A stretch of DNA of 59,270 nucleotides from IMG/VR virus record IMGVR_UViG_3300005096_000097, positions 1 through 59,270 of that record. One strand, written 5' to 3'. The notes beneath the pieces were generated by a model. It saw nothing but the letters and a program-made list of their open reading frames with translations. It searched no databases and was not told the DNA's origin. This document shows positions 32,366 to 54,707 of the stretch, piece after piece. The position numbers and the translations under genes are program-made. The stretch comes from a virus. The number at the start of each line of letters is the position of its first letter. The stretch's first letter is position 1.

Positions 32366-32395
32366 ACTTTCCACTTTCTATTTGAGGAGACACAG

Positions 32396-32686
32396 ATGAG
32401 TAACTTATTTGCTTTCATGATGCCAGGCGCTCCAGAGTTGTTGATTATTGGCATTATCGCCGTCCTACTCTTTGGCAGCAGGCTTCCTAAGCTTGCATAC
32501 TCCATGGGTAATAGCTACACTCAGTTCAAACAGGGTTTGTCAGAGACGACTTCCGAAATCTCATCCTGTAAGGATAAGATTAACGCGGGACGTGATGCCG
32601 TCCAGGCGTCAATTGAAAAGGACATCCAGAAGGTTAAGGCCTCGGTTGACAAGGGCGTCCAGTCCGTCAAGGACTCGGTCAAATAA
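32396..32686 (+). CDS. tatA: Phage-encoded TatA/TatE-like translocase subunit
   Basis: A 96-residue protein, start MSNLFAFMM with GGAGA upstream. 'PGAPELLIIGIIAVLLFGSR' is the short TatA membrane helix (about 10-27) with the FG hinge, then LPKLAYSMGNSYTQFKQGL, the amphipathic helix. The charged helical tail (about 50-96) repeats Lys/Val/Ser (KVKASVDKGVQSVKDSVK). TatA rings form the pore of the twin-arginine system. A TatA gene in a phage that also encodes an RR-signal protease is unusual and suggests a dedicated export route. Confidence 0.85.
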   Translation: MSNLFAFMMPGAPELLIIGIIAVLLFGSRLPKLAYSMGNSYTQFKQGLSETTSEISSCKDKINAGRDAVQASIEKDIQKVKASVDKGVQSVKDSVK

Positions 32687-33952: not shown

Positions 33953-34645
33953 ATGGATGCTGAACCCACACACACGATCACAGTTCACGAAGATGGTCTG
34001 AAGTATGGTCAAATTGATGGTCACTACTTCAGCCCACAGCGGGACGCCAAATTCACTGTCAAGGATTTACAGAACATCATCCGGTTGATGGAAAACCATC
34101 AGACCTCAGACACCCCTGTATGGGAGTATGTCTCCATCCAGAAACAGAAGGACGACTTTGGCCGCCTGATATTAGTGGTCCATCCTGGTGTGTATACCAC
34201 CCGTCCCGATATTGGGTCTGCCATTACTGTGGATGGGAACCCGTACACCTTGGATGCCATCTGCAAGGGTGTTCGAGGGAGTGATAACCTCCATTTTGCT
34301 GTCACACCCGTTGTTGAGAATCTGGAAGAAGCATTTAAGAGATTTGGACCAATGGGACAAGTGCCGTCTAGTCTCAACCAGGTCGTCCAGATGGAATCTC
34401 GGCAGGAGCGAATCCCATCGACGCAACACTTCACGAGTGTGTGCAACACAAAACATGGCGATGGCTGGACTCATGTGGTCCAGTTCCCTCTTGGGAGCGA
34501 GCGTCCATCAGCCGGTAAACATGTCCTCATTGATGGGGGTGCCTACAAGGTGCTCGACGTTAAGGATGCAATGCAACCTGCTCGCCTGGCTCTGACGGTC
34601 ATCCCAGTACTCGTACCTCAGAGGTCAGAGAAACAGTATGTGTGA
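33953..34645 (+). CDS. Two-copy 'G-V-x-I-D-G-x-x-Y' beta-domain protein
   Basis: A 230-residue protein. The N-terminal part (GQIDGHYFSPQRDAKFTVKD... IIRLMEN) resembles the starts of the genes at 37392 and 37792. Two beta-domain copies follow: GSAITVDGNPYTLDAI (about 88-103) and GKHVLIDGGAYKVLDV (about 188-203). Each is followed by a strand 'l.ltv.Pv'. First member of a 9-kb run of related genes. No signal peptide, so cytoplasmic. Function unknown. Confidence 0.6.
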   Translation: MDAEPTHTITVHEDGLKYGQIDGHYFSPQRDAKFTVKDLQNIIRLMENHQTSDTPVWEYVSIQKQKDDFGRLILVVHPGVYTTRPDIGSAITVDGNPYTLDAICKGVRGSDNLHFAVTPVVENLEEAFKRFGPMGQVPSSLNQVVQMESRQERIPSTQHFTSVCNTKHGDGWTHVVQFPLGSERPSAGKHVLIDGGAYKVLDVKDAMQPARLALTVIPVLVPQRSEKQYV

Positions 34646-35798
34646 CGCAGAAGCTCAGAGGCTCAAAGAAATCCATGCGAGGATGCACGCCGTCATGGCC
34701 GGGGGAGCCCTGGCGAGGGCTCAGAGGCACCTCAATAAGTCGGATTCGTTACCACCTCCTGAGACAACCATCACTATACCCCGCGATGACTATAACGCCC
34801 TGGTGTCCGCCAAGACTCCCACCATTACTACACCCCTTGACGGTAGAGACACCCCACCCTCGATGGTTCCTCGAAGAAATGCAATGCCAGTCATGGCATT
34901 ACGCTTAGAATCCACGGTGGAACACTACAGTCCTGATGATACCAAGCGGGGGCTTCGCAGATTCGACGTTGTCCCTCGCCCGGATTACACCCCAGAGTTA
35001 GGCGGCATCGTTTATATTGATGGGGAGGAGTTCTGTGTCCAGGGTTACTATATCTATGATGGTGATGTGGGATGGGAAATGCTAGTCTCCGAGGTCATTA
35101 AAACCCCATCAGAAATACCCTGCCACGAAATGATTGCGGGGTCCTTCAAATCCCTCGCTCAGACCTCCGTCGGGTTTACTGAGAAGGAAGGGGCCTCAAC
35201 CTTCATTCTGAGTACTGCGTCCCATGACCGACCCATGCCTAAGAAAGGCTCCGCCATTCTCATTGATGGTTCCCCATACCAAGTGTGGCACTGGGGACCT
35301 GGGAAAGACAAGGTGCTTGTCCAGGGTACAGCTCAGACAGCTCGGGTTGTTGAAAGGTCTATGACTATTGACCCTGCGAGTGAAGTGGAAGGTCAGGAAG
35401 ACCTGGTTATTGTTGGGCGGTTCACTGCGGAGATGTACGGCCACGATGGGCATGGGGGCTTTATGGCCCTCATTAAGATACCAGTGTTCTACACCTATGA
35501 TCTGAAGCCCGAGGACACAATAACACTCGATGGGCTCCTATTTGAGGTGGAGGGTGTGGAGGGTGTGCCTGATGAGAACCTGTACTGGTGGATCTCATGC
35601 AAACCGGTCTTTCTGCCGCCAACACTAACCCCCTGCCCGGGTGTCAGACGGTCTGCCCAGGTGGACATACAAATCCGACCTCGGGAGTGGCCCGATGGTA
35701 TGCACACCTACCTAACTGGTAGTCAAGACACCCAATGGCAGCCGACTTCGCCCCAGGGCTCAGACAGGTCTAACCGCTTATTCGGACTAGGATCATAA
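34638..35798 (+). CDS. Three-copy beta-domain protein
   Basis: A 386-residue protein. A helical, disordered N-terminus (1-80) precedes three copies: GGIVYIDGEEFCVQGY (about 121-136), KGSAILIDGSPYQVWHW (about 202-218) and EDTITLDGLLFEVEGV (about 296-311). Before each copy is a strand pattern ending 'p.p.y/h.p.p'. Largest member of the array by length. Function unknown. Confidence 0.6.
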   Translation: MCDAEAQRLKEIHARMHAVMAGGALARAQRHLNKSDSLPPPETTITIPRDDYNALVSAKTPTITTPLDGRDTPPSMVPRRNAMPVMALRLESTVEHYSPDDTKRGLRRFDVVPRPDYTPELGGIVYIDGEEFCVQGYYIYDGDVGWEMLVSEVIKTPSEIPCHEMIAGSFKSLAQTSVGFTEKEGASTFILSTASHDRPMPKKGSAILIDGSPYQVWHWGPGKDKVLVQGTAQTARVVERSMTIDPASEVEGQEDLVIVGRFTAEMYGHDGHGGFMALIKIPVFYTYDLKPEDTITLDGLLFEVEGVEGVPDENLYWWISCKPVFLPPTLTPCPGVRRSAQVDIQIRPREWPDGMHTYLTGSQDTQWQPTSPQGSDRSNRLFGLGS

Positions 35799-35801
35799 TC
35801 C

Positions 35802-36101
35802 ATGAGTAACCCAATTCTAAACCTTGTGTGGTGCATCCTAACCTTCTCGTTCTGTGTCGGGGGTATTGTGGGTATGGTGCTGCTAACTGTGCCCACGCGG
35901 TACCCCAACCATGAACCAGGCGAGCCTGACACAACCCACTGTTACAAGTATGCAATGTGGACCTTGACATTCTCAGGGGTATTGGCCTGTGGGGCTATTT
36001 TCCTTGATCCTATTGCCCTAATTGAGGTTGTGGCACTAACCGGGTTTGGTATTGTAACACTTTGTACCTCAAAATGGCGAAACCGGGAGACTCCCACATG
36101 A
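35802..36101 (+). CDS. Three-helix membrane protein
   Basis: A 99-residue protein. Helices at about 6-30 (LNLVWCILTFSFCVGGIVGM), 50-66 and 70-90, with a Cys/His-containing loop (TTHCYKYAMW). Paired with the next membrane gene by ATGA overlap. Function unknown. Confidence 0.5.
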   Translation: MSNPILNLVWCILTFSFCVGGIVGMVLLTVPTRYPNHEPGEPDTTHCYKYAMWTLTFSGVLACGAIFLDPIALIEVVALTGFGIVTLCTSKWRNRETPT

Positions 36102-36367
36102 TATTCTTCCTTTGCTTCCTGATTGCGTCCTTTATGGTCTGTGGTTTGTGTGGGCTATGCCAGTTGTACTCAGCCGCCCGTACATTTCCTGGTAAACGGC
36201 AGCGAGAATACCAAGGGTCAGGCTTGACAATGTTTGGCGTTGGACTTACACTTGCAGTATTGTCAGTAGCAATTCACTGGTCCGCCCTGATCCCCCTCGG
36301 CGTGATGCTGGGATTGATATTCAACCAACTTATACTCCGCCGACCAAATCCCGAGGACTTCAGATGA
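36098..36367 (+). CDS. Three-helix membrane protein
   Basis: An 89-residue protein, start MIFFLCFLIASFMVCGLCGL. Similar layout to the preceding gene (helix, charged loop with 'YqgsGltmf', two helices), so the two may be paralogs. ATGA junctions both sides. Function unknown. Confidence 0.5.
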   Translation: MIFFLCFLIASFMVCGLCGLCQLYSAARTFPGKRQREYQGSGLTMFGVGLTLAVLSVAIHWSALIPLGVMLGLIFNQLILRRPNPEDFR

Positions 36368-37308
36368 TAGACCCAACTGTCAATTACAATTTCAATGGCG
36401 ACCAAATACTAAGCCAGAACCCAAGTGGGCAGGGTACTGAGTTCTTCGTACTTGGGGATATGCAGTTCCAGCCTCAGTGGGGTGAGACTGCCTTTATTGA
36501 CGGTGTGTATTACACAGTCCTGGAGTCCCATGAAGTACATAATGCGGTTTCATTGACTTGTGAGAAGAGATCTGACCAGACCCCCCTACGTGCTCGGAAC
36601 CTGGATCACCTACCCTGGCGACTTACTCTGGAAAAGGAGGGGTTTCTGACTTATGTCTTCAATGAGGAAGACCGGGTGACCTTGGAAATGGGGATCTACG
36701 TGGTTATTGGGGGTTCTATTCACTACCTTAAGGGGCAATGGGTTCAGGATGAGGAATGGTACCTTAGGACTTTGCCAACTCCTGACGTGCTGCCAGGACC
36801 CTGGGACCCCGCCTACAGTTTCAGATCTGCCAACGAATATGCCCTCAACTCCGACAAGACTGGGTTCAACATTTGGGTACCCAAGTGCCCTGACTTTGTA
36901 CATCCAAAACCAGGAGACCTGGTTCAGATTGATCACGCCTATTACCTAGTGGAGCACTATGACCCTCTACAGCAGGGTATGGGTATGTCAAAACTTACTG
37001 GATGCCGGTGGCGGTTACCCCTACCAACTGATCACCCAGCACACGACACAACCATTTATGGACTTGACGTACTACGAATCATGGATAAGGACCCCGTGTC
37101 CTTTGGTGAGACAGTCTTTACGCTGCATGCAGATGGTCCATCACTGGGTACCTTTAACAAACTACGCCACAATGGCGACGTCTACCAAATCCTAGGACAG
37201 TCTGGTACTAAAGACTGGTTAAGGGTCTGGTGCCGGCTTATAGAAGAACCAGATATCATTCCAGGGGACCCTCAGGTCTCCGTAGGCGTCCAACACATGG
37301 TCTCATAG
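36364..37308 (+). CDS. Four-copy beta-domain protein
   Basis: A 314-residue protein with four copies of the array domain: WGETAFIDGVYYTVLESH (about 39-56), MGIYVVIGGSIHYLKGQW (about 115-132), PGDLVQIDHAYYLVEHYD (about 181-198) and FNKLRHNGDVYQILGQ (about 265-280). Highest copy number seen per protein. Between copies are Trp- and Pro-rich strands. Function unknown. Confidence 0.6.
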   Translation: MIDPTVNYNFNGDQILSQNPSGQGTEFFVLGDMQFQPQWGETAFIDGVYYTVLESHEVHNAVSLTCEKRSDQTPLRARNLDHLPWRLTLEKEGFLTYVFNEEDRVTLEMGIYVVIGGSIHYLKGQWVQDEEWYLRTLPTPDVLPGPWDPAYSFRSANEYALNSDKTGFNIWVPKCPDFVHPKPGDLVQIDHAYYLVEHYDPLQQGMGMSKLTGCRWRLPLPTDHPAHDTTIYGLDVLRIMDKDPVSFGETVFTLHADGPSLGTFNKLRHNGDVYQILGQSGTKDWLRVWCRLIEEPDIIPGDPQVSVGVQHMVS

Positions 37309-37391
37309 AGCCCAGAGGGGTTTGTTGGCGTTCCGAGGCACATATTTACGACCAGGGCTCTGAAAGCCCCTTGTTGGAGCTAAGAATTGAT

Positions 37392-37799
37392 ATGACTGAC
37401 CCATTATTCGTAGTCAGACTGGTTAAAGGGGGTTCCGAACGTGAAGTCCACTACAATGGGGTTTACGTGGGACGTATTCATGGTGGGGACTTTAGGTCCT
37501 GTGGGACTCGTTGGTACACACCCAAATTGCTGGCTCTCATCCTGGAATACATTGCCGAGCACCCAGCCGGGAGCATCCCGGAGCAATGGAGCTTCGAGTC
37601 CATTGATGATGTGATACACATTCACGATGGGGAATTTATGGCTATCTTTGAATTCCCGGAGGAGGCGTCCCAGCGACCTTGGCGGGACTGCATAGTGTTG
37701 ATGGATGGTACACCAACAAAACTCGCCCACATCCTGGAACTAAAAGATGACACCCGGGTAGTTGCCCGTTGTAAATACGTGGAGATGACCAATGACTAA
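37392..37799 (+). CDS. Beta-domain family protein with shared N-terminal module
   Basis: A 135-residue protein: HYNGVYVGRIHGGDFRSCGT, LLALILEYIAEHP... PEQWSFES, then DCIVLMDGTPTKLAHILEL, one degenerate array-domain core. The N-terminal module (G..G.dF, helix, 'p.W.f') is shared with the next gene. Start MTDPLF at 37392; the region 37309-37391 holds no gene. Function unknown. Confidence 0.55.
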   Translation: MTDPLFVVRLVKGGSEREVHYNGVYVGRIHGGDFRSCGTRWYTPKLLALILEYIAEHPAGSIPEQWSFESIDDVIHIHDGEFMAIFEFPEEASQRPWRDCIVLMDGTPTKLAHILELKDDTRVVARCKYVEMTND

Positions 37800-38235
37800 T
37801 ACTGTAACGTTTGCGCAGACGAACAATGGCTATCGGACTGCAACATGGGTTGGCTGTACTCTGGGCACTCTCGTTGGGCAGGATTTCCACCCAAATGAGG
37901 GTGTATGTGTCCCAAAGGACCAATTAGCGGAGATTATCCGGGAATTGAACCGCGACCCACAGGAAACAGTGCCCGAACGATGGAGGTTCAAGTCCGAGGG
38001 TTTGAGTCTCGACAGCCCAAGAGGGTGTCAGGTTATTGCCAGAATAGATCTTGCTGGGTCCTATGTGCAGGGACTTGTTCCAAATACTGGGTCCTACATT
38101 ATAGTTGATGACATTGTGTTGGAAGTCACTCGAATGTACCGATTACATGACACCCACTTCTACATTGTGGTGGGAAATCGGATTCCGGCACCTCGTGGGA
38201 CACATATGCACTTCAAAGACACCCCCTCTAGGTAG
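37792..38235 (+). CDS. Beta-domain family protein, paralog of previous
   Basis: A 147-residue protein: MTNTVTFAQTNNGYRTATWV, TLVGQDFHPNEGVCVPKDQL, AEIIRELNRDPQETVPERWR, then TGSYIIVDDIVLEVTRMY, one core copy. Same two-part plan as the preceding gene, starting 8 bases inside it. Function unknown. Confidence 0.55.
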   Translation: MTNTVTFAQTNNGYRTATWVGCTLGTLVGQDFHPNEGVCVPKDQLAEIIRELNRDPQETVPERWRFKSEGLSLDSPRGCQVIARIDLAGSYVQGLVPNTGSYIIVDDIVLEVTRMYRLHDTHFYIVVGNRIPAPRGTHMHFKDTPSR

Positions 38236-38262
38236 GACCTAAGATGTACTGGGTCAATAGTT

Positions 38263-38517
38263 ATGGACACTGAGTATGATGAAGTACGTGGCTTTGAAGC
38301 CCGAGGTTATGGGCCACGGATAGTTGATGGTCAGGTAACATATGACCTAATCGAAGTCCACATGTGTTGGGATGCGATCCGCGAACTGGAGCCAGGGGAT
38401 ATTGTCCGGGTGGAATATATTGATTACACCCTCTATGACTTTTCGTATGGGAGTGCTGGACCAACATATTACTTACGGGTGCTGCCCGTTGATGATGCAG
38501 ACGACATAGAGACTTAA
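38263..38517 (+). CDS. Single-copy beta-domain protein
   Basis: An 84-residue protein, essentially one array domain: ...YDLIEVHMCWDAIRELEPGD, IVRVEYIDYTLYDFSYG, then YYLRVLPVDD. It shows the minimum unit of the family: about 75-80 residues. Acidic end. Function unknown. Confidence 0.55.
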   Translation: MDTEYDEVRGFEARGYGPRIVDGQVTYDLIEVHMCWDAIRELEPGDIVRVEYIDYTLYDFSYGSAGPTYYLRVLPVDDADDIET

Positions 38518-38519
38518 TA

Positions 38520-39233
38520 ATGACAACTGATACACCCGGATTTGAAAATACACACAAGCGCCCTGGGATTCTTGAGAAGAGCCTCCTCCATGACGGGTCG
38601 GGGTTGAGGCTGAATATCCCCCAACCATACATGAACAATGCGACCATTGGTCAGTTCGTGCAACTGGGGTCCAGCACCTACCAACTCACCTGGGTAGAAA
38701 GGTTGGAGAATTGCAGTCACTTCAAATGTACATGGGATCCCAAATATGGGGGTATTGGGATCGACGCGATACCCTCGCTGGACATCCGTCGTTGCCGCCC
38801 CGTCACGGATTGTCAATGTGATGACTATGCGGTGAAATGTGACTCCTTTGAGGGGTTTCCCACCCCAGATAGTCTAATTTGGACACCAAATGGGGTGGAT
38901 ATCCTTCGACAGGTACTGATTCGCAACCGTGAGTACTTCCATGTGAGTCTCCAACCCCTAGCAGCAGCCTATGCGAGCAACTACGGGGGGTACGTCCATC
39001 GTTTTGATGTTCCAGACGCCGAAGATTATGAACGAATGTGGTCCATGGAGGGTGAAACACTCCTCCGCATCCCGGCTGTGGGCCCTGCAAGCGTACCCAC
39101 TCCTGGAGAGTTGTTGAATTGGTTTGGCACCATATACGTGGTTTTGAAGAGTCGATATGTCCCGGAACGTCCAAGTAAGGATGCAGGGTGGGATTTACAT
39201 TGTTTACGAATTGAACGGAACACCGATGGTTGA
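38520..39233 (+). CDS. Multi-copy beta-domain protein
   Basis: A 237-residue protein with at least two array cores, IGQFVQLGSSTYQLTWVE (about 41-58) and TPGELLNWFGTIYVVLKSRY (about 195-214), and a more altered middle copy (SLIWTPNGVDILRQ...). It begins three bases after the single-copy gene. Function unknown. Confidence 0.55.
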   Translation: MTTDTPGFENTHKRPGILEKSLLHDGSGLRLNIPQPYMNNATIGQFVQLGSSTYQLTWVERLENCSHFKCTWDPKYGGIGIDAIPSLDIRRCRPVTDCQCDDYAVKCDSFEGFPTPDSLIWTPNGVDILRQVLIRNREYFHVSLQPLAAAYASNYGGYVHRFDVPDAEDYERMWSMEGETLLRIPAVGPASVPTPGELLNWFGTIYVVLKSRYVPERPSKDAGWDLHCLRIERNTDG

Positions 39234-39765
39234 ACACCCAATTACAATACATGCTGACCCGAGATACATCTGGGCGCCCGAGGGACTTGCTGGGTACACT
39301 CTGGAAGCGACAGCGGACGAGCTACTAACCCTAACCCCCACCACGTCAGTCCTGATTAACGGGGAGACTCTGGCAACGTGTGTTGCATGCGAGCGACTGG
39401 ATGATGGGCAGTACCGCCTGTGGGTGCGTCAGGATGTCCATCCTAATCACTTGATATCTTTCAGCGAGATGACCTGTGCGAAGTTACCCCAGGTCAACAT
39501 CTGGTTAGTTGTGGTACCCCTCCGGAAAGCGAACCTGATTCGGAGGTGCAAGCCCGGGGATGTGGTGATGGTCAATGACTTCAAGGTTGAGATACTGGTA
39601 ATTGACGCTATTGACGCCAAAGATACCCTGGATCGTGTCCCAAAGTTCATTATGTCAGTTAAGAGTGAGGACACTCTTGATCCAACCGGTATCGGACACG
39701 ATAATTTGGGCTTCGACGAGGATGATTATGACCCTGGGAACGATCCCCGGAGTATTTTGGATTAA
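39226..39765 (+). CDS. Two-copy beta-domain protein
   Basis: A 179-residue protein from ATG at 39226, an ATGGTTGA overlap with the previous stop; an upstream ATG at 39157 would add 23 residues. Cores: TTSVLINGETLATCVACERL (about 48-67) and PGDVVMVNDFKVEILVID (about 108-125). Acidic C-terminus (EDDYDPGNDP). Function unknown. Confidence 0.55.
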   Translation: MVEHPITIHADPRYIWAPEGLAGYTLEATADELLTLTPTTSVLINGETLATCVACERLDDGQYRLWVRQDVHPNHLISFSEMTCAKLPQVNIWLVVVPLRKANLIRRCKPGDVVMVNDFKVEILVIDAIDAKDTLDRVPKFIMSVKSEDTLDPTGIGHDNLGFDEDDYDPGNDPRSILD

Positions 39766-39783
39766 CCAAGCTGGGAGAAACAC

Positions 39784-40266
39784 ATGACTGCAATACCAAC
39801 CGTAATGTACCGGAACACCGTGAACTTGTACGGACATAATTACTTCGTCTACAAAGTGACGGGGGACCCTAAAGTTGATTGGCTCGGGGAGTTCCTGGAG
39901 GGGCAAGCGATTGATTTGGACGGGGAGACGTTCCGCTACTGTACTCACAACCATGTTGGTTACGATGGTGAAGTGAATGAGTACGAAGTGTTCGTCGATC
40001 ATATTGGCGACCCAGTCCCCACTCAGGATGAGGTTCCAGAATTTGAGGGTCAGTTCCAGCACCGGATAGAACTGCAAGGTGTTATGTATAGGGTGTACAA
40101 CCTTCTTGGTACTGAGGCTGGGGGTCCCCTACCTGGGACCTACATTAACGCCATGGTGTGCATACTTGGGGAGAACCAGATACTGGCAGACATAGTGTAT
40201 ACCCACATGGAGTCTGGAGCCCGCCAGCTTGTTGCTTACTGTACCAACGTTCCGAGGGCAAGATGA
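39784..40266 (+). CDS. 'YxVF-ING' beta-domain protein
   Basis: A 160-residue protein. Two copies of a form in which a strand 'v.l.G..Y.Vy.v' precedes the core: NTVNLYGHNYFVYKV with GQAIDLDGETFRYCTH, and HRIELQGVMYRVYNLLG with a weaker second half. GGGAG lies 9 bases before the ATG. Function unknown. Confidence 0.55.
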   Translation: MTAIPTVMYRNTVNLYGHNYFVYKVTGDPKVDWLGEFLEGQAIDLDGETFRYCTHNHVGYDGEVNEYEVFVDHIGDPVPTQDEVPEFEGQFQHRIELQGVMYRVYNLLGTEAGGPLPGTYINAMVCILGENQILADIVYTHMESGARQLVAYCTNVPRAR

Positions 40267-40358
40267 AAGAATGTGATGGTGAACAAGTCGATGATATTTG
40301 GCTGGAAGATATTCGATCCCAGGTGTACAAGGTTATCCTTCCATGTTTGAGGGCGTAA
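40263..40358 (+). pseudogene. Truncated 'YxVF' family gene
   Basis: A 31-residue reading frame, MKECDGEQVDDIWLEDIRSQ then VYKVILPCLRA. It aligns with the start of the gene at 40488 (GEQTRDIHLGVHDYQVFTV) and then stops. ATGA coupling suggests it may still be translated, but the domain is cut short. Best seen as a decayed copy. The 129 bases after it hold no gene. Confidence 0.5.
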
Positions 40359-40487
40359 TCATGTAAATCGTGGCGACACTATCTGCATAAATGGTTAAAC
40401 AACTGCCTACCACGCCCAGATTCCAATAGATGTTGTCGATGGGGACGGAGGGTCTATTTCCTTGTTAATTCATAAAGGTAACACAAG

Positions 40488-40958
40488 ATGTACAAGCTAA
40501 TTGGTGAACAAACGAGGGACATTCATCTGGGGGTCCATGACTACCAGGTGTTTACCGTAGATTGTCAGGACATGGACGGGGGCGACCTCGACTCTATGCT
40601 CCACCCGGATGGTCTACTTCACACCTCTATGAATGGACTACCTTTCGATTTGCTGGACCTACGTCCCAAGGAAGGTAACCGCTATACCGCAACTGGGTTG
40701 GTTCGGAAAGAGGCCGTCATTCGACCAATGCCCACGTTTGAAGCTGACGAGCGTGAGCAAATAGACCTCCATGGGCACATGTACCAAACGTTCCATGTGT
40801 ACATTGACCCGTCGGACTATGGGACCTCGGACTTCACACCGGGGAAGGTAATTGGCGTGAACAACCAGTTTTATGTTCTGCACGCGAAATTGCGAATACC
40901 TTATCGGAATTCACCAAAGGCAAATATGCACATACTCATTATGGAGGGACCATGTTAA
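40488..40958 (+). CDS. Two-copy 'YxVF-ING' beta-domain protein
   Basis: A 156-residue protein. Copy 1: RDIHLGVHDYQVFTVDCQD (about 11-29) with HTSMNGLPFDLLDLRP. Copy 2: EQIDLHGHMYQTFHVYIDP (about 86-104) with TPGKVIGVNNQFYVLHAKL. AAAGG lies about 10 bases upstream. Function unknown. Confidence 0.55.
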   Translation: MYKLIGEQTRDIHLGVHDYQVFTVDCQDMDGGDLDSMLHPDGLLHTSMNGLPFDLLDLRPKEGNRYTATGLVRKEAVIRPMPTFEADEREQIDLHGHMYQTFHVYIDPSDYGTSDFTPGKVIGVNNQFYVLHAKLRIPYRNSPKANMHILIMEGPC

Positions 40959-41167
40959 GATTCATTGGTACTCAGTGCCCAGCCATTCGGCTAAAGAACA
41001 AATGCTACCCCGTGTTCTGGGTGGACGTGAAAAACAACACGAAGCCTATTGAACAGAACACAGTGGTTCAGATCAACGGTCGTAAATACACCTACCTGGA
41101 CTGTGTCGTGGATAAAGGTCCAAACTCTTACTACTTTTTCATTGTGGAGGAGTTATGCTCAGAATAG
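40952..41167 (+). CDS. Single-copy 'YxVF-ING' beta-domain protein
   Basis: A 71-residue protein, the cleanest single domain: PAIRLKNKCYPVFWVDVKN, then EQNTVVQINGRKYTYLDCVV, ending YYFFIVEEL. It is nearly superimposable on both halves of the next gene. Overlaps its neighbours by 7 and 13 bases. Function unknown. Confidence 0.6.
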   Translation: MLRFIGTQCPAIRLKNKCYPVFWVDVKNNTKPIEQNTVVQINGRKYTYLDCVVDKGPNSYYFFIVEELCSE

Positions 41168-41631
41168 AATTAGATGGATTGCCCGACTTTGTGCTGGACG
41201 GTAGGGCGTACCCTACATTCAAGATTTTCACGGAGGGTGAGAGGGCCAGGGATGCAGACCCGAACTCTGAAGCTGTTGAGGCACTCAGTGGTGGCCAGAC
41301 AATCCAAATCAATGGAGGGCTCTACGAGTTCCTGTTGTACGAACACTGGATAACAACCATCAGTCCTTATGAGCGATGGTACCGTGTGTTTACGCGGAGA
41401 CTAAATGTCAATTCTGGTGAACTCCCTGCGTTCGTTGGCGACTCCACGGTTGGGATACGCATCCAAGAGGTGAACTACCCCGTGTTCAAGATCCGTCCGA
41501 ACTCAATTAGTGATGAACCCCTGGCACCTGGGTCGCTGATTAAAATCAATGGCGTTCCCTATGTTTACGTGGATTGCATTGTTCCGGATCAGGAACTGGA
41601 TCGGTACCAATTCATCGTGGAGGAACTATGA
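41155..41631 (+). CDS. Two-copy 'YxVF-ING' beta-domain protein
   Basis: A 158-residue protein. Copy 1: DFVLDGRAYPTFKIFTEGE and GGQTIQINGGLYEFLLYE. Copy 2: VGIRIQEVNYPVFKIRPNS and PGSLIKINGVPYVYVDCIV, ending YQFIVEEL. Copy 2 is close to the single-domain gene before it, showing how units are fused. Function unknown. Confidence 0.6.
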   Translation: MLRIELDGLPDFVLDGRAYPTFKIFTEGERARDADPNSEAVEALSGGQTIQINGGLYEFLLYEHWITTISPYERWYRVFTRRLNVNSGELPAFVGDSTVGIRIQEVNYPVFKIRPNSISDEPLAPGSLIKINGVPYVYVDCIVPDQELDRYQFIVEEL

Positions 41632-42380
41632 TCAGGATCCAAGCGTACCCAAGGGCTCCCCTGATATTAGCGGGTCAAACCTACCACGTCTTTGATTACA
41701 AACACTCGGGGATAGCACCCTACTCAGGTGTTGTATTCCCGGAAGTCCTTATAAACGGGGATCCCTATCGGATCCTCGACCAGCGTCACAAGGAAACACT
41801 GGCTGGGACACCCAAAGTTCGCGCGGAAAAGGGGTTGCAGTGGGTCCATACCTTGATTACAATACCCATAGACAGAGAGATTGTACCTGCCCACTCATTT
41901 GAGGCAGAACTCTACGATGAGGTTACCCTGAATGGTCTGGAGTACCAGGTATTTGAGGTAATGACAGACGATGATACCCTCGATGACATTGGTCGTCGGG
42001 ACCTAGTTCGGTTCCCCGGCTGGGGAGATTACTACCTCCACTTGTACTTACCCGTAGGAACATTTGATGGGGGGCACGAACACCCGTCTCTATTACTTGT
42101 TTGTAGCAGACCAGTCAGCAGGAAGTTAGACACCATGAAAGAATTCAACGGACACTATAGTCAGCGTGTGGACATCACGGACTCCGTGCATATCGTCGGA
42201 CTTTTGGTGACAGCCACACTAGAGGAACTCGGCAGTGTTGAGACCGGTGACCAGATTAAGTTTGCTGACAAGTATTGGATTTACCTGGACCAACTCCCCG
42301 TGGACTTTGGTCCCGGACAGGCACTAGTGGTCTATTTCATTGTGCAACCTGCTCCGGAGACACAAACTAATGGGTATTGA
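41628..42380 (+). CDS. Three-copy 'YxVF-ING' beta-domain protein
   Basis: A 250-residue protein, ATGA-coupled. Copy 1: PLILAGQTYHVFDYKHSG and FPEVLINGDPYRILDQRH. Copy 2: DEVTLNGLEYQVFEVMTDD and RRDLVRFPGWGDYYLHLYL. Copy 3: HYSQRVDITDSVHIVGLLVT and TGDQIKFADKYWIYLDQL. Last soluble member before membrane genes begin. Function unknown. Confidence 0.55.
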   Translation: MIRIQAYPRAPLILAGQTYHVFDYKHSGIAPYSGVVFPEVLINGDPYRILDQRHKETLAGTPKVRAEKGLQWVHTLITIPIDREIVPAHSFEAELYDEVTLNGLEYQVFEVMTDDDTLDDIGRRDLVRFPGWGDYYLHLYLPVGTFDGGHEHPSLLLVCSRPVSRKLDTMKEFNGHYSQRVDITDSVHIVGLLVTATLEELGSVETGDQIKFADKYWIYLDQLPVDFGPGQALVVYFIVQPAPETQTNGY

Positions 42381-42468
42381 AGACATGTGGACCGTCCTGA
42401 GTCCACTCATCCTGCTTGCGTGTTTCATTACACTGTTCAAGATTATCGACAAGATTGACGATTGGTAA
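42370..42468 (+). CDS. Tiny single-helix membrane protein (32 aa)
   Basis: ATG overlaps the preceding stop by 11 bases. Sequence MGIEDMWTVLSPLILLACFI then TLFKIIDKIDDW: one membrane helix with a short charged end. Its neighbour at 42475 has the same plan, which supports that both are real. Confidence 0.45.
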   Translation: MGIEDMWTVLSPLILLACFITLFKIIDKIDDW

Positions 42469-42474
42469 AGACTC

Positions 42475-42585
42475 ATGGAATTACATATTACGCCAGCCCT
42501 TGGGCTGATGTTCGGCATGGCCTTATTGTGCTGTATCCTCATAGGAATTCGCCTCTTGGATTGGTACTTTGGAGACCACCGGTGA
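42475..42585 (+). CDS. Tiny single-helix membrane protein (36 aa)
   Basis: Sequence MELHITPALGLMFGMALLCC then ILIGIRLLDWYFGDHR. One membrane helix followed by 'I..LDW', like 'I..IDDW' at the end of the preceding tiny protein. Lies between a soluble array gene and a membrane-fused array gene. Confidence 0.45.
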   Translation: MELHITPALGLMFGMALLCCILIGIRLLDWYFGDHR

Positions 42586-42613
42586 GTAACTCAAACCTTT
42601 GGAAGGGATTGTG

Positions 42614-43048
42614 ATGGCAAACTTCAATAGCCGAGGGGGCGGTATGCAGGTTGGCAATAACCGCGTGTTCCATATCCCTATTAAGTATGTGGAACACAAC
42701 CTCTTGAGGCTAGAGGCAGGGGATGATGTTACGGTAGACTTCGCGGCCTACCAGGTTATGCACCCCCTCCCCAGAGCAAGAGTCTCAGGTCGTGGGTTGA
42801 GCACTATTGTCTGTCAGGGTATGGACCCACCCCCGGCACACGCAGAAGTTATATGTGTGATGCTGGGCTTTGGGTTAGTATGGGCGCTCTATCTCAGTAA
42901 CGTCCTACCGGTGTATGCCCTTGGGGTTGCTGGTGTGGTGGTTGCCAGATGGTGTGTGTGGTACCTAACTCGCCATAGCATTATAGATCAATTACCAATG
43001 GACGCAGATTTCCTTTATTTGAGTGTGAGGCCGCATAATGCCACTTGA
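42614..43048 (+). CDS. Beta-domain fused to two membrane helices
   Basis: A 144-residue protein. The N-terminal array-like domain (RVFHIPIKYVEHNLLRLEAG, DDVTVDFAAYQVMHPLP) is followed by helices at about 77-97 and 99-117, and the end MDADFLYLSVRP. The next gene repeats the order, so the two are paralogs. GGAAGG lies 8 bases upstream of the ATG. It links the soluble beta-domain family to the membrane. Function unknown. Confidence 0.55.
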   Translation: MANFNSRGGGMQVGNNRVFHIPIKYVEHNLLRLEAGDDVTVDFAAYQVMHPLPRARVSGRGLSTIVCQGMDPPPAHAEVICVMLGFGLVWALYLSNVLPVYALGVAGVVVARWCVWYLTRHSIIDQLPMDADFLYLSVRPHNAT

Positions 43049-43673
43049 CCCGAACCATGAACACATCGACCTAATCATGGGGCTCGTCACCGATGATTAT
43101 GATGACGCCAGGGCTCGTGGTGATATGCTCCGTGCGCACTACCTCATGGAGAATGCCCGACGTGATGGCTTCCTAATTGACTATGTCCCTGGTGGAAAGA
43201 CGACTTGGTCCCACACAAGCGGGAAGACAGCCGGTGACCCCCATGACTGGGATTCAAATTTCCAGGGTGATGAGGAGTTTGTAACGAAGCAGTTCCGTAT
43301 CTTCCGTGTGAAGACCCATCGGAAAATGAAACGCATTATGGACCTAAAGGAAGGTTCCCGTGTACGGGTTAACTTTGAGCAAGTGAAGGTAGGTAATCCC
43401 CTCCCCTCTATGTTGCTGAGTAACGAGGACGTGCGATGGTATGCCCAAGCCGTTCAGGACCGAACAAACATAATCCTCCGTGTGTACATCCCTACGTTCA
43501 CGATAGCTCTAGTTTGGTGGTTAGCGTTTGGCAGTTGGTTCACCTACGTTGTAATGGGTACAAGTGCCTTGTGGATATTTATGACCACCAAAGGCTGGGG
43601 GATGAGTAAGCCTCCAAACGTTAGGCTACCTGGTGATACTGAGTACGTTTACTTTGTAACGGAGAATGACTGA
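43038..43673 (+). CDS. CysRS-tail-like helix plus beta-domain plus membrane helices
   Basis: A 211-residue protein. The N-terminal part (DDARARGDMLRAHYLMENAR, RDGFLIDYVPGGKTTW) resembles the short helical tail of cysteinyl-tRNA synthetases. Then FRIFRVKTHRKMKRIMDLKE, GSRVRVNFEQVKVGNPLP (array domain), two helices (about 150-185), and the end PGDTEYVYFVTEND. It parallels the preceding gene with an extra N-terminal module. Function unknown. Confidence 0.55.
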   Translation: MPLDPNHEHIDLIMGLVTDDYDDARARGDMLRAHYLMENARRDGFLIDYVPGGKTTWSHTSGKTAGDPHDWDSNFQGDEEFVTKQFRIFRVKTHRKMKRIMDLKEGSRVRVNFEQVKVGNPLPSMLLSNEDVRWYAQAVQDRTNIILRVYIPTFTIALVWWLAFGSWFTYVVMGTSALWIFMTTKGWGMSKPPNVRLPGDTEYVYFVTEND

Positions 43674-44079: not shown

Positions 44080-44126
44080 TGGTAGGGACGGATACAATTT
44101 AGTCACTTGGTTTGGGAGTTAACGAA

Positions 44127-44402
44127 ATGATGCTTATGTTGAATGTGGCGAGTGCCTTGGCAGTACTGTCAATCCTCGGGAGCCTACTTTACCGTTTCAC
44201 CCGTGAGTGCTTTGAGGTTGATGAACTCCAATTCCTTGGACCCGTCGCGATTATCCTCTGGCTACTGGGAGGCTTCCTCCTAGGTGTCCTGATGACACAG
44301 CATGGGGCATTCGGATCCATTTTCGCCTGGGTGGGTTTCGTCCCGTGGTTGGGGTGCCCCATTTACCTGATTACCAAAACTAGGGAGACCCCTAATGTCT
44401 AG
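44127..44402 (+). CDS. Three-helix membrane protein
   Basis: A 91-residue protein. GGGAG lies 9 bases before ATGATG. Helices at about 6-25, 38-58 and 63-82. First of an uninterrupted run of membrane genes to 47085. Function unknown. Confidence 0.5.
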   Translation: MMLMLNVASALAVLSILGSLLYRFTRECFEVDELQFLGPVAIILWLLGGFLLGVLMTQHGAFGSIFAWVGFVPWLGCPIYLITKTRETPNV

Positions 44403-44598
44403 TATGATACCTGCCCTCACGGTTCTGCTCATCTTTAGCTTCTGGCGGAACATTGTCTGGGAGATTCGGGCGGGTCGTGATGACCCTACTCTCTGTGGCG
44501 CCTCAGCTTCTGATAAGCATGCTTATGCGTGGCAGAAGGTAGCATTTATTGGCTTTTACATTACTACATTCATCTGTTTCTTAGAGGCATGGAAATGA
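44395..44598 (+). CDS. Two-helix membrane protein
   Basis: A 67-residue protein starting 8 bases inside the previous gene. Helices at about 3-22 and 46-64, with a charged loop (RAGRDDPTLCGASASDKHAY) between. Function unknown. Confidence 0.5.
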   Translation: MSSMIPALTVLLIFSFWRNIVWEIRAGRDDPTLCGASASDKHAYAWQKVAFIGFYITTFICFLEAWK

Positions 44599-44792
44599 TT
44601 TGGTTCTTCGCGACACTCCTCAGTCTGCTGATGGTGCCTTTTATTGTGGGTGCTGGCTGGTTTGCTTACCAAGCCCTGGACTGCGAACGCTGGAAAGACG
44701 CAAGACTTCACGTTGGGGGTGTCGGCATTTGCGCAAGTGGCGTCTTCTTCTTCAGTGTCATGCTCTTACTTATAGGATACCTCCAATGTTAA
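44595..44792 (+). CDS. Two-helix membrane protein
   Basis: A 65-residue protein, start MIWFFATLLSLLMVPFIVGA with GAGG 7 bases upstream (an ATG at 44589 is an alternative). Second helix about 42-62 (GICASGVFFFSVMLLLIGYL). ATGA junction. Function unknown. Confidence 0.5.
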   Translation: MIWFFATLLSLLMVPFIVGAGWFAYQALDCERWKDARLHVGGVGICASGVFFFSVMLLLIGYLQC

Positions 44793-45043
44793 CTCCATGT
44801 CTTTGGGTGTGGTTCTCCGCAAGCATCCTCATTTGGGCAGGTTGTATGTACCGCTGGCGATGCCTGAACGACTCTAGTGACTTCAATGTGCTCATGCCGG
44901 TATTGGGCTGCATTTCCTCCTTAGTTTGCTTATCCACCATGGTGTACCATGTAGACAGCATGGCAACTGGGGTGATTGGCTTTGTAGCGACTATAGCATG
45001 GCTTGCTTGTGCCGGTACCTTATTCCTAGGAGACCCCGAATGA
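44786..45043 (+). CDS. Three-helix membrane protein, 'VWMFF' family, diverged
   Basis: An 85-residue protein: MLTPCLWVWFSASILIWAGC, helix at about 38-56, and VIGFVATIAWLACAGTLFLG. Same three-helix order as the four genes after it, with the final 'iw.a...' helix altered. Function unknown. Confidence 0.5.
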   Translation: MLTPCLWVWFSASILIWAGCMYRWRCLNDSSDFNVLMPVLGCISSLVCLSTMVYHVDSMATGVIGFVATIAWLACAGTLFLGDPE

Positions 45044-45303
45044 TTGCTTGTACAATTCTGTGGTTCTTAACTTCCGTACTCGTCTGTGTCTGCCTGGATA
45101 AGAAGATGAGAGCACTACAGCACCCCCTGCGAGACGATTATGTGTGCTACCGGGCACTAACCTGGGTGACGTCCCTGGTCGCCCTATCACTGCTCTTCGT
45201 ACAAACCGAAGGGACTTACTTCACGGGGGTTGTCTCAGCCACGGCTGGGTTGTGGGTTGCCGGCTCAGTGTGGATCTTTTACTTTAATCAAGAGGTGGAG
45301 TGA
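45040..45303 (+). CDS. 'VWMFF' family membrane protein, copy 2
   Basis: An 87-residue protein, MIACTILWFLTSVLVCVCLD KK..., ALTWVTSLVALSLLFV, and TAGLWVAGSVWIFYFNQEVE. GGAG-type site 8 bases upstream. The closing motif 'W.a.sVWiF.' identifies the family. Function unknown. Confidence 0.55.
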   Translation: MIACTILWFLTSVLVCVCLDKKMRALQHPLRDDYVCYRALTWVTSLVALSLLFVQTEGTYFTGVVSATAGLWVAGSVWIFYFNQEVE

Positions 45304-46833: not shown

Positions 46834-46842
46834 GGGGTATCG

Positions 46843-47970: not shown

Positions 47971-48169
47971 TGTACATGTTGTGTTTCAGGTCATTTACCT
48001 GATTGCCGGGATGATTGCCCTACATGCTGGGGCTGTGGCATTAGTGTGCAAGGTATTTGAGCCACGCTGGTTCATGGGCTGTGCAAGGGTGTGCATAGCT
48101 GCTGTGGCAGTGATGGCTTTGAACGGGCTGGTCGCTGGCGTGTCTACACTGGTGAGGTACGGGTTATGA
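47960..48169 (+). CDS. Two-helix membrane protein
   Basis: A 69-residue protein with helices at about 7-29 (VFQVIYLIAGMIALHAGAVA) and 40-60 (CARVCIAAVAVMALNGLVAG). Overlaps both neighbours. Function unknown. Confidence 0.5.
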   Translation: MPSDVHVVFQVIYLIAGMIALHAGAVALVCKVFEPRWFMGCARVCIAAVAVMALNGLVAGVSTLVRYGL

Positions 48170-48411
48170 GTAAAGACGAATTCACTGGCTTGGTCCATCT
48201 GAAGAACATGCGTGACATTGGCAAGTTCGCGGATACTCAGTGGCAGGTGTTTCGAGGATTGATTGCTGCCCATGACTGGGTGGACATCGAGCTACGGCGT
48301 AACATCCAAATTAACAAACATGTGTACAATGTGAAAGATATTCTGACGACCCCCTTCACATTGGGTAAAGCGGCCATGGGATTTGTGATAGTTGGGGATC
48401 CGGTCTACTAA
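48166..48411 (+). CDS. Short beta-domain protein, 'GKFADT' family
   Basis: An 81-residue protein: LKNMRDIGKFADTQWQVFRG, then NIQINKHVYNVKDILTTPF and FVIVGDPVY. 'iGkFADt...v.RG' and the 'v.iN...y.v' core recur in the three genes at 49774-50435. ATGA overlap. Function unknown. Confidence 0.55.
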   Translation: MSKDEFTGLVHLKNMRDIGKFADTQWQVFRGLIAAHDWVDIELRRNIQINKHVYNVKDILTTPFTLGKAAMGFVIVGDPVY

Positions 48412-48456
48412 TTTCAGTTCAGCGGATGGCTAAACGTGGGTATCAAAGAAGTGGTA

Positions 48457-48477: not shown

Positions 48478-48522
48478 ACAGACTTGCTTAGGACAAGAGA
48501 TATTATTGGTATTCGTGCTTAA

Positions 48523-49773: not shown

Positions 49774-50001
49774 ATGATTGATTTGGGAGATATGGAAGAC
49801 CTTGGCAAATTCGCCGACACAGACTTGGACATGTACCGTGGTGTCCTGTCCCAGACTGAAATGCGCAACTTGATACCCGGTAACACACTTGTCACAGTCA
49901 ATGGGAAACGAGGTGTGCTTGTCGAACTGATTCCCTTGGAACAAAGTGGTTTGTATGACGGAATTGTGTTCGTCAAATCTCGGGAGGTGATCGATGGTTG
50001 A
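49774..50001 (+). CDS. 'GKFADT' beta-domain protein, tandem copy 1
   Basis: A 75-residue protein: MIDLGDMEDLGKFADTDLDM, YRGVLSQTEMRN, GNTLVTVNGKRGVLVELIPL, IVFVKSREVIDG. It ends with the sequence that also starts the next copy (CGGGAGGTGATCGATGGTTGA), so the stop/start overlap itself is duplicated. Function unknown. Confidence 0.6.
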   Translation: MIDLGDMEDLGKFADTDLDMYRGVLSQTEMRNLIPGNTLVTVNGKRGVLVELIPLEQSGLYDGIVFVKSREVIDG

Positions 50002-50221
50002 ACTCGAAAGTATGGAGTTGGTTCAGACGTTTCGGAATCAAACGGGATGTGCAGTGTTCCGGGGCATGGTACCACAAGGAGCTGTACTGGGTCTGTCACA
50101 TGACGTGATCTGTAAAATAAACGGCGTGAAATGGACTCTCGTCGAGGTCATACCCCTGGCTCACGAGGACACCTTTGAATCGCTTGTAATTGTCAAACCC
50201 CGGGAGGTGATCGATGGTTGA
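49994..50221 (+). CDS. 'GKFADT' beta-domain protein, tandem copy 2
   Basis: A 75-residue protein: MVELESMELVQTFRNQTGCA, VFRGMVPQGAVLG, CKINGVKWTLVEVIPLA, LVIVKPREVIDG. Same length as copy 1, same junction. The KINGVxW core links this family to the larger beta-domain array. Function unknown. Confidence 0.6.
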   Translation: MVELESMELVQTFRNQTGCAVFRGMVPQGAVLGLSHDVICKINGVKWTLVEVIPLAHEDTFESLVIVKPREVIDG

Positions 50222-50435
50222 TCTTGCTGAGTTGGATTACATTGGTGACTTCGGAAACTACGAGGGGTGGTCCACGTTTCGAGGACAGATCTGGCAGGCG
50301 GACGCGAAGGATTTGAAACCGAGCTGCCTTGTTAAAATCAATGGGAAGGAACAAGTCCTTGTCGCGTTGATTCCCCTGGGTGGTGGTCCGGTGTTTGAGG
50401 CAATTGTGGTGACCCGATTCGGGTGGTGTTACTAG
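50214..50435 (+). CDS. 'GKFADT' beta-domain protein, tandem copy 3
   Basis: A 73-residue protein: MVDLAELDYIGDFGNYEGWS, TFRGQIWQADAKDLK, CLVKINGKEQVLVALIPLG, AIVVTRFGW. It lacks the REVIDG ending and so closes the tandem run. Function unknown. Confidence 0.6.
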   Translation: MVDLAELDYIGDFGNYEGWSTFRGQIWQADAKDLKPSCLVKINGKEQVLVALIPLGGGPVFEAIVVTRFGWCY

Positions 50436-50452: not shown

Positions 50453-50518
50453 ATGATGTGTACGCTACTGGTTGCTATGGAAGTCATTTACAATCCGATT
50501 GGGGTAAAGTCTGACTGA
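50453..50518 (+). CDS. Possible 21-aa leader peptide
   Basis: MMCTLLVAMEVIYNPIGVKS D, preceded by AAGGA at 9 bases and coupled by TGATG to the next gene. It may be a leader that sets translation of the 50518 gene, or just chance. Confidence 0.3.
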   Translation: MMCTLLVAMEVIYNPIGVKSD

Positions 50519-50964
50519 TGACATTTCTACTAAACATGCAGAGCCCACTTCATAACGAGCAGGTTACAATTGGGACGTACGCATATGCACTCATGTGGTT
50601 TACGTTCGGACCCGAGGAACGCCCAGGGGCTCTAACCTCACTGGGAGTCCATAAAAAGGTATGGGAGGTCCTCCACATGGACCCACTCCCACAGGGCACC
50701 CAGCCTGGTCAGAGATACACCTTGAGTTGTGTACTCCGCCGCCCCCTGGATATTGAGTACCCGAACCTAACGGCAACTGTCCTCTGGAGAGAGGGTCGGG
50801 TTGTGTCACTTCAGGTTAACGTCTTGAGGGGGCAGGAGACCGCTTTGTTTTATGCGGGAGATAAATTCCGTATCAACGACGAGCCAACGATTTACCATAT
50901 CAAGGTTGCGGGTGATAGTAGGCAGGGTGGTTGGCTTATTATGGCTGAGGAAATTGCCGGCTGA
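50518..50964 (+). CDS. 150-residue 'EVLHxDPxPQG' family protein, copy 1
   Basis: A 148-residue protein: VTIGTYAYALMWFTF, WEVLHMDPLPQGTQPGQ, CVLRRPL, ATVLWREGRVVSLQVNVL, FYAGDKFRINDEPTIYHIKV, LIMAEEIAG. The same landmarks recur in the genes at 51007 and 54270. Predicted all-beta, cytoplasmic. Function unknown. Confidence 0.6.
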   Translation: MTFLLNMQSPLHNEQVTIGTYAYALMWFTFGPEERPGALTSLGVHKKVWEVLHMDPLPQGTQPGQRYTLSCVLRRPLDIEYPNLTATVLWREGRVVSLQVNVLRGQETALFYAGDKFRINDEPTIYHIKVAGDSRQGGWLIMAEEIAG

Positions 50965-51006: not shown

Positions 51007-51471
51007 ATGACAATTCTTTATAACGTTCAAGCAAGCTCCCTGAGATTAGCATCCATCGGAACATACACGTACGGAATGTACGAGGTCAAGCTCCGGCCCG
51101 AAGAAGTTCCCGACGATTTGCAGTATATCATCATCGACGGAGGTCATATGTCCGTCTGTTACCTGGAGCCATTCCCAGAGGATGCCGTCCCCGGGCAAGT
51201 GTACAAATTGCTCGCCACTCTAAGGTGCAAGGCATCCTCGTATCCTGAAATAGAGGCCGAGCAACTCTGGAAGGATGGAAGCACTGTTGCTTTGGCAGCA
51301 GACCTACTTGATGATGATATTTATGGTATCTATAACGCAGGGTATCGATTCCTGCTTAAAGGTAGCCCACAAATCTACCGGTTACAGAATGGTGACGCAT
51401 TGGACAAGTTCCAGACTATGCTCCGGGACGGTCGAAAATACTTCTTAGCGGTTGAGATTTCCAGTAGCTGA
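51007..51471 (+). CDS. 'EVLHxDPxPQG' family protein, copy 2
   Basis: A 154-residue protein: ASIGTYTYGMYEVKLRPEEV, VCYLEPFPEDAVPGQVYKLL, AEQLWKDGSTVALAADLLDD, YNAGYRFLLKGSPQIYRLQN, FLAVEISS. Co-linear with copy 1. Function unknown. Confidence 0.6.
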   Translation: MTILYNVQASSLRLASIGTYTYGMYEVKLRPEEVPDDLQYIIIDGGHMSVCYLEPFPEDAVPGQVYKLLATLRCKASSYPEIEAEQLWKDGSTVALAADLLDDDIYGIYNAGYRFLLKGSPQIYRLQNGDALDKFQTMLRDGRKYFLAVEISSS

Positions 51472-51500: not shown

Positions 51501-51546
51501 TCGGGGTACCATCTGTTCAACGATGATTTAACGTGAGGACAACTTG

Positions 51547-52014
51547 ATGGAATTCAAGAGTAAATTGATGTGTGGGCCAACGGTAATTGGACGGTGGAAG
51601 TACGAGACCCATGAACTTGAGGGCCCGAGCAACCACCTATATGCAAGTACCCACGTAATCACCCTGAATGGGGTGGATGTGGAGGTGGTGGCCTGGCCCC
51701 ACGACCAATCCTCCAGTGACCCACCCAGACGTGCATACGTCACGGTAAAAACACCCATCCAATTATTCCCGGTACTTATTACCGAGGACTTCCCGTCTCA
51801 CCACACGGGGGCTGATGGTACGGCCGTGGTTGTCATTGAGGCTCGGACAACGTACGGGGGCATCAAGGGGATTATAGAAGCCACTGATAAAGGTCTGGTC
51901 TGCGTAAATGATTCGCCGAAGACATTCCGAATACACACATGGACGCAGGTTGGTCCCCCAACTGAGGAACATGAGCTGCCACTGTATAGTCTACTCCTGG
52001 AGGAAGTGAAGTGA
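51547..52014 (+). CDS. Divergent member of the 150-residue beta family
   Basis: A 155-residue protein: VIGRWKYETHELEGPSNHLY, THVITLNGVDVEVVAWPH, YVTVKTPIQLFPV, IEATDKGLVCVNDSPKTFRI, LYSLLLEEVK. The order fits copies 1 and 2 (Y-containing strand, core, 'aG/dkG..f.v....tyri', end 'lllEE'). Function unknown. Confidence 0.55.
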   Translation: MEFKSKLMCGPTVIGRWKYETHELEGPSNHLYASTHVITLNGVDVEVVAWPHDQSSSDPPRRAYVTVKTPIQLFPVLITEDFPSHHTGADGTAVVVIEARTTYGGIKGIIEATDKGLVCVNDSPKTFRIHTWTQVGPPTEEHELPLYSLLLEEVK

Positions 52015-54269: not shown

Positions 54270-54707
54270 ATGTCAACTGAAATCCTGAAGAATCCACTCT
54301 GTTCCAAATTGACTTCTGAGATAATTGGGAACTACAAATACATCACGGCCATATTTGAAATGGATCCAGCGAGATACCCGGAGGGTGTCGAGTGGATGGA
54401 AGTCAGCGGGTACACATTTGAGGTACTGCATCTTGACCCGTACCCCCAGGGTGCCACACGGAGCCCGACAGTTCCCATCCATGGAGTGGTTCGGCGATTC
54501 CTGAATGGTATCATTCCGACTATTTCGGGAACAATCCTCTGGGTTGAAGGTGAAATGGTGGTACTCAAGGTATCGTTGGCACCTGATGATATCCAACGCA
54601 TTAACGAGGCGGGTGGGTACCTTGAGGTTGAGAGTTCAACCTACCGGCTGCGCACCAAGACACGGACGGACACTGGATACATTATTGTTGCGACGGAGGA
54701 ACACTGA
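54270..54707 (+). CDS. 'EVLHxDPxPQG' family protein, copy 3
   Basis: A 145-residue protein: EIIGNYKYITAIFEMDP, FEVLHLDPYPQGATRSP, GVVRRFL, GTILWVEGEMVVLKVSLA, NEAGGYLEVESSTYRL, YIIVATEEH. Co-linear with 50518 and 51007. Function unknown. Confidence 0.6.
   Translation: MSTEILKNPLCSKLTSEIIGNYKYITAIFEMDPARYPEGVEWMEVSGYTFEVLHLDPYPQGATRSPTVPIHGVVRRFLNGIIPTISGTILWVEGEMVVLKVSLAPDDIQRINEAGGYLEVESSTYRLRTKTRTDTGYIIVATEEH

Follow-up and report, generated by a model that had tools for sequence, protein, structure and literature searches.

Phage head-closure proteins of the stopper type are built on a shared beta-barrel core that bears a flexible loop (PMC9701221). The multiplication of one small domain within a phage lineage has been described in Bacillus phage G, whose lineage-specific expansion comprises about 35 zinc ribbon copies (PMC7824862). 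Here we analyzed an IMG/VR virus record of 59,270 bases from an uncultivated tailed phage (IMGVR_UViG_3300005096_000097; this whole stretch is called the window), in which 15 genes encode about 28 copies of one small beta domain (the array). The best explanation, to which we give about an even chance of being right, is a lineage-specific tandem expansion of a head-closure/tail-type five-stranded barrel that was reused as accessory binding modules; confidence is higher for the shared fold and lower for the function. A literature search found no description of such a barrel array, and the zinc ribbon expansion of phage G is the precedent. Small-domain expansion in one phage lineage is therefore already known; what appears to be new, as the searches made did not find it, is the kind of fold, the clustering of the copies and their apparent origin from a virion-type protein.

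The array domain comprises about 55 residues and has the consensus f.v.p ... pGd.V.I[DN]G..Y.V ... w.v.v.p. A profile was built from 28 hand-anchored copies in three blocks, namely the first strand, the 'pGd.V.I[DN]G..Y.V' hairpin and the last strand. It recovered 15 open reading frames (ORFs; g1 to g15 in Table 1), all on the plus strand within 33953-43673, and iteration held at exactly 28 domains in 15 ORFs. The E-values ranged from 3e-24 to 3e-4, and the best controls were far weaker (0.22 for shuffled ORFs, 0.59 for reversed ORFs and 1.8 for ORFs of related phages). The array of one repeated beta domain that a first-pass annotation had read from this DNA is thus real, and the copy numbers given there for six proteins (one in g6 and g11, two in g12, three in g2 and g13, four in g3) were confirmed. 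Its limits had been placed at 33953 and 42380; the start stands, and the end lies further downstream, at 43673, with g14 and g15 added. The genes had been called overlapping, which is true of some of them, whereas others are spaced apart. Core identity among the copies was low (median 14%, maximum 51%), and the two loops varied from 3 to 19 and from 2 to 16 residues in length while the strands stayed aligned. A predicted membrane segment occurred only in g14 and g15 among the 15 array proteins, and in both it lay inside the barrel domain. A second domain ('YnG.y.G.i.G.dF.p...L..Ii.ei..hp...P..W.F') seems by eye to be common to the N-terminal parts of g1, g4, and g5 (33953-34160, 37392-37620 and 37792-38010), ahead of the barrel copies.

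Because the profile always recovers its own seeds, each gene was also left out in turn. Seven of the 15 genes (g1, g2, g3, g11, g12, g13, and g14) were recovered at E <= 0.005 and outscored by no other ORF; g8 was outranked by one. The top 'decoy' ORFs of this analysis (50,211 and 50,515) themselves bear the array motif and revealed a second cluster at 48.1-54.7 kb, with about 16 copies in 10 genes and one or two domains in each. These copies probably belong to the array family, on weaker evidence than the array itself. The 10 genes outscored the other 98 gene calls as a group (Mann-Whitney p between 8e-5 and 7e-4 for the three profiles used), although these p values are somewhat optimistic because the grouping was picked after two members had scored well. 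In hhalign comparisons against the array profile, the single-domain set gave P 2e-4 and the two-domain set was weaker (P 0.006). The family would thus total about 44 copies, about 28 in the array and about 16 in the second cluster, and their genes make up about 21% of the window.

AlphaFold2 was applied to two sets with no sequence in common: one combined g11 with 20 array copies, the other the two-barrel protein 50518 with five second-cluster paralogs. Both models (pLDDT, the predicted local distance difference test score, in Table 1) showed a strand-strand hairpin, a longer loop, another strand-strand hairpin and a fifth strand; in the model of 50518, the loop of one domain contained a short helix. 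The agreement of the disjoint sets on a five-strand barrel topology supported the view that the copies have the same fold. In the Foldseek search of the PDB with the g11 model, ranks 1-5 were all virion or neck entries of phages or a gene transfer agent (GTA), mostly neck or stopper proteins: the T1 stopper (E 0.018, probability 1.00), the R4C stopper (probability 0.97), lambda (probability 0.98), the GTA and the NF5 neck. VIA-align gave Z 6.4 for the R4C stopper, 5.4 for the lambda neck, 5.3 for 2pp6 and 4.2 for the SPP1 connector, and the BFVD matches included several head-tail adaptor or joining proteins. As the E-values exceed 0.001 and Z stays below 8, the stopper match is consistent but not conclusive; the best stopper value, 6.4, lies under the level that excludes common arrangements.

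No convincing family emerged when the array proteins were scanned with Pfam, PHROGs, and PADLOC, and those tested against the PADLOC models had no match at E 0.1. For g2 and g3, Pfam listed a single family, Phage_attach (gpFII, PF05354), whose matches fell below threshold, with a best score of 16.7 bits against a cut-off of 26. The PHROG connector families did not match the array. In related phages, the gene just beyond the capsid gene matches the PHROG head closure family Hc1 (E 8e-4, one ortholog). When the array profile was compared with 28 orthologous-family profiles from these phages, Hc1 came first with P 8e-4 (about 0.02 after multiplication by the 28 families), the next value was 0.03, and two further comparisons agreed. 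The sequence comparisons and models thus support, without proving, a head-closure barrel fold common to the copies and possible descent from a protein of that kind.

Several observations weigh against this reading. Taken one by one, the sequence and fold matches all fall short of conventional cut-offs, and the head-closure gene of this phage is outside the window, past its left edge. Seven array genes (g4, g5, g6, g7, g9, g10, and g15) were not individually significant when left out, with ranks of 21-52 among 797 ORFs (top 7%), and their membership is therefore a weaker claim based on motif and position. The mean ratio of nonsynonymous to synonymous substitution rates (dN/dS) is below 1. Fold matches of the 50518 model were weak and mixed, and its second domain was most like Lon N-domains (Z 5.5). 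In a PDB sequence search, the array profile matched eIF5A best (E 0.013) and also hit ribosomal proteins, while phage neck proteins were absent from its matches. The match to the eIF5A/EF-P KOW motif and the Lon-like domain leave room for a rival account, in which small barrels of a generic kind (SH3/KOW or OB-like) were acquired from cells and expanded by duplication, and convergence on so simple a fold would explain the likeness to stoppers. Among the 21 members scanned, one matched the EF-P KOW domain at E 0.056, none reached the curated Pfam cut-off for EFP_N, and the Foldseek values of g11 were not significant. However, head-tail proteins ranked first or close to first among the matches of the g11 model in two structure libraries, and Hc1 of the related phages was an outlier among the 28 profiles. 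We consider a generic cellular origin possible, although rather unlikely.

The proposal that one beta domain was expanded by tandem duplication was supported by the shared profile, the same predicted fold, a repeated gene junction and a similarity that was slightly higher between neighboring than between distant copies (Mantel p 0.024). Genes g11, g12, and g13 were each preceded by '(G/A)TGGAGG' within the coding sequence of the last strand of the upstream gene, and 49,994 and 50,214 in the second cluster shared a second, equivalent junction. These repeated junctions suggested duplication of a small gene with an embedded ribosome-binding site. Promoter- and terminator-like sites were no commoner in the region than in shuffled sequences. 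In paralog pairs with unsaturated synonymous divergence, dN/dS was 0.29-0.58, while most array pairs were too diverged to measure. Every measurable pair was therefore under purifying selection on average, and the pairwise data gave no support to the earlier statement that the array implies diversifying selection; the array proteins appear to be kept by selection. At least four more small tandem gene families (21592-22468; 23090-23556; 24400-25802; 25799-27431 with 29562-29888), apparently unrelated to the barrel, indicate that duplication is a general habit of the window genome. A largely non-adaptive array, in which copies accumulate and drift in a duplication-prone region with little dedicated function, would fit these unrelated tandem families, but the 15 uninterrupted genes, mostly with ribosome-binding sites, and the low dN/dS suggest proteins kept by selection and make it improbable.

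Table 1. Genes of the barrel array (g1 to g15) and of the second cluster in the window (aa, amino acids; LOO, leave-one-out)
Gene	Position	Strand	Product	Evidence
g1	33953..34645	+	230 aa; N-terminal domain common to g4 and g5, 2 barrels (34166-34348, 34463-34633)	LOO E 9e-6
g2	34638..35798	+	386 aa; 3 barrels (34953-35120, 35193-35363, 35457-35630)	LOO E 3e-4; Pfam Phage_attach (gpFII) below threshold, E 0.012
g3	36364..37308	+	314 aa; 4 barrels (36433-36594, 36643-36795, 36859-37032, 37108-37260)	LOO E 0.005; sub-threshold Phage_attach E 0.018
g4	37392..37799	+	135 aa; shared N-terminal domain, 1 weak barrel (37629-37796)	LOO: not recovered
g5	37792..38235	+	147 aa; shared N-terminal domain, 1 weak barrel (38023-38196)	LOO: not recovered
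g6	38263..38517	+	84 aa; single barrel (38338-38502)	E 8e-10 when included; LOO rank 23/797
g7	38520..39233	+	237 aa; 2 barrels (38598-38765, 39048-39230)	LOO: not recovered
g8	39226..39765	+	179 aa; 2 barrels (39292-39450, 39496-39681)	LOO rank 16/797
g9	39784..40266	+	160 aa; 2 barrels of 'i.l.G..Y.VF.v' type (39814-40023, 40057-40260)	LOO rank 26
g10	40488..40958	+	156 aa; 2 barrels (40512-40724, 40752-40955)	LOO rank 21
g11	40952..41167	+	71 aa; single barrel domain, predicted five-strand, pLDDT 86.2	LOO E 0.001; stopper fold matches
g12	41155..41631	+	158 aa; 2 barrels (41179-41427, 41449-41628)	LOO E 2e-5
g13	41628..42380	+	250 aa; 3 barrels (41652-41888, 41913-42131, 42177-42365)	LOO E 0.002
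g14	42614..43048	+	144 aa; 1 barrel, two-helix membrane hairpin between central hairpin and last strand	LOO E 6.5e-4; hydropathy
g15	43038..43673	+	211 aa; 1 barrel with membrane insert; g14 paralog, nearest copy g14	LOO: not recovered
	48166..48411 (listed ORF 48091-48411; ATG 48166 likelier)	+	single-domain protein	BLAST paralog of 49994/50214; alignment
	49774..50001 (listed ORF 49615-50001; ATG 49774 follows GGAG)	+	single-domain protein	alignment, paralogy
	49994..50221	+	single-domain protein	single-domain alignment vs array profile, P 2e-4
	50214..50435	+	single-domain protein	profile score, hhalign
	50518..50964	+	two-barrel protein	predicted structure, pLDDT 84.7
	51007..51471	+	two-barrel protein	alignment, paralogy
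	51544..52014	+	two-barrel protein	alignment, profile score
	52150..52611	+	two-barrel protein	weakest sequence match; low profile score
	53737..54204	+	two-barrel protein	near copy of 52150-52611 (55% identity, dN/dS 0.45)
	54270..54707	+	two-barrel protein	alignment, paralogy, profile score

The terminase, portal, and major capsid genes of the window were found on the minus strand at 1-8 kb, and this structural block is truncated by the left end before the tail genes. The array lies outside the structural module, on the opposite strand at 33.9-43.7 kb and more than 20 kb away. The records of relatives were mostly fragments; the closest relative found was also the longest of them (104 kb), with a terminase 77% identical to that of the window. 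Synteny between the two extended from the left end to ~30.4 kb, followed by divergence, and the array begins beyond this point. No array domain was detected in this relative, which keeps the structural block, and the ORFs of related phages matched the array at E >= 1.4 throughout. Array relatives sought in IMG/VR, the GenBank phages, and the closest phage were not found, nor did tblastn of 50518 against the GenBank phages give a match. With 28 copies undetected in close relatives, the array is a lineage-specific paralog expansion. A search of viral contigs for close relatives of eight query proteins left seven without a match, the terminase alone finding relatives, and a scan of genome contigs with the terminase revealed no host. 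A protein of Photobacterium phage PDCC-1 that matched g2 in tblastn against the GenBank phages (E 2e-3) was rejected as a relative because the aligned region lacks the motif and the protein starts with a signal-peptide-like stretch.

The array proteins might instead belong to the virion, for example as decorations of the neck or capsid or as parts of the tail made of repeated barrels. Their best fold matches are virion proteins, and there were weak PHROG matches to minor tail proteins. However, the array's strand and distance from the structural block, its setting among genes for small membrane proteins and NAD (nicotinamide adenine dinucleotide) salvage, and its apparent absence from a relative that retains the block all argue against a role in the virion, which we regard as improbable.

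The neighborhood of the array is a variable part of the genome, with about 20 small ORFs with predicted membrane segments and the NAD-salvage genes not far away. Between the two barrel clusters (44112-49652, plus strand) there are about 14 small proteins with 1-3 membrane segments each, several of them paralogs. A phage-encoded protein of the TatA/B/E family (Pfam E 6e-11) was found at 32393-32686 on the plus strand. Further upstream, plus-strand genes at 15907-16596, 18231-19022, 20184-21536, and 22516-23085 included a class 3 lipase (Pfam E 2e-12), two proteins recognized by eye (a trypsin-like protease and a peptide deformylase) and a weak SPFH/Band 7 match. Within and beyond the second cluster, three paralogous proteins were found at 52630-53700, 54918-55655, and 58223-59137. 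The first is an HNH endonuclease, and its gene contains an in-frame run of the 9-base repeat CAAGCAGGT at 53340-53421. The low-complexity repeated DNA at 56600-57500 gives repetitive peptides on both strands and is probably non-coding.

In the preferred explanation, the ancestor of the barrel would be a phage protein of the head-closure type (gpFII or the SPP1 gp16 'stopper', related to the tail tube). The unit of tandem duplication would have been a small gene in which the coding sequence of the last strand doubles as the ribosome-binding site for the gene that follows. The products may act inside the infected cell as accessory binding modules, a step proposed with less confidence. The barrel would serve as a rigid scaffold, and its two longer loops, differing in length and sequence from copy to copy, would be matched to different proteins of the host or of rival phages, while the copies in g14 and g15 would be tethered to the membrane by the inserted helical hairpin. 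The likeliest role would be that of binding modules directed, within the cell, at proteins of the host or of competitors. Binding to many variants of a host defense or surface molecule, given as an example in the first-pass annotation, is possible. No secretion signal was noticed by eye in the array proteins; with this and the lack of a virion context, a surface target seems less likely than an intracellular one.

The NAD-salvage genes comprise a PRPP-synthetase-like gene (phosphoribosyl pyrophosphate; 23553-24407, plus strand, PHROGs E 7e-71) and a nicotinamide phosphoribosyltransferase-like (NAMPT) gene (28091-29560, plus strand, PHROGs E 1e-151). The two would be the genes that an NAD+ reconstitution pathway such as NARP1 is expected to contain. 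Pathways of the NARP1 type counter NAD-depleting defenses (PMC12774641). Some NAD-destroying defenses respond to phage proteins: DSR2 is triggered by a tail-tube protein (PMC11087589), and SpbK interacts with the protein YonE of phage SPbeta (PMC12847820). It would be a long shot that the array is a decoy bank, in which neck- or tail-like barrels occupy defense sensors without triggering them while the NAMPT- and PRPP-synthetase-like genes rebuild NAD.

Phage accessory regions are rich in small proteins without known function, and here one barrel, possibly derived from the virion, was multiplied and varied over about one fifth of the window. If the head-closure ancestry is true, a structural part has been turned into an accessory protein family, whose members are candidates for host or defense interaction screens. 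The natural 71-residue single-domain member g11 should be easy to study.

Compared with stoppers (lambda gpFII/PF05354, SPP1 gp16 and PHROG 161 Hc1), the array domain is likewise predicted to be a small barrel and has the same hairpin signature around 'pGd.V..g..Y.v'. Stoppers gave its best fold matches, and Hc1 its best profile match among the genes of related phages. It differs from them in being shorter (~55-70 residues) and multi-copy, often with 2-4 domains per protein, in its location in an accessory region on the other strand, and in scoring below the family cut-off. A similar hairpin, 'G..V.I.G.p..v.di', occurs in the KOW barrel of eIF5A/EF-P, but the sequence match spans the central hairpin only, and this barrel was absent among the best 50 fold matches listed for g11. 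The genome of Bacillus phage G is much larger than that of the array phage. In both cases one phage lineage has come to encode dozens of copies of one small domain; the array differs in its fold and in that its copies are arranged in two clusters and are often fused into multi-domain proteins.

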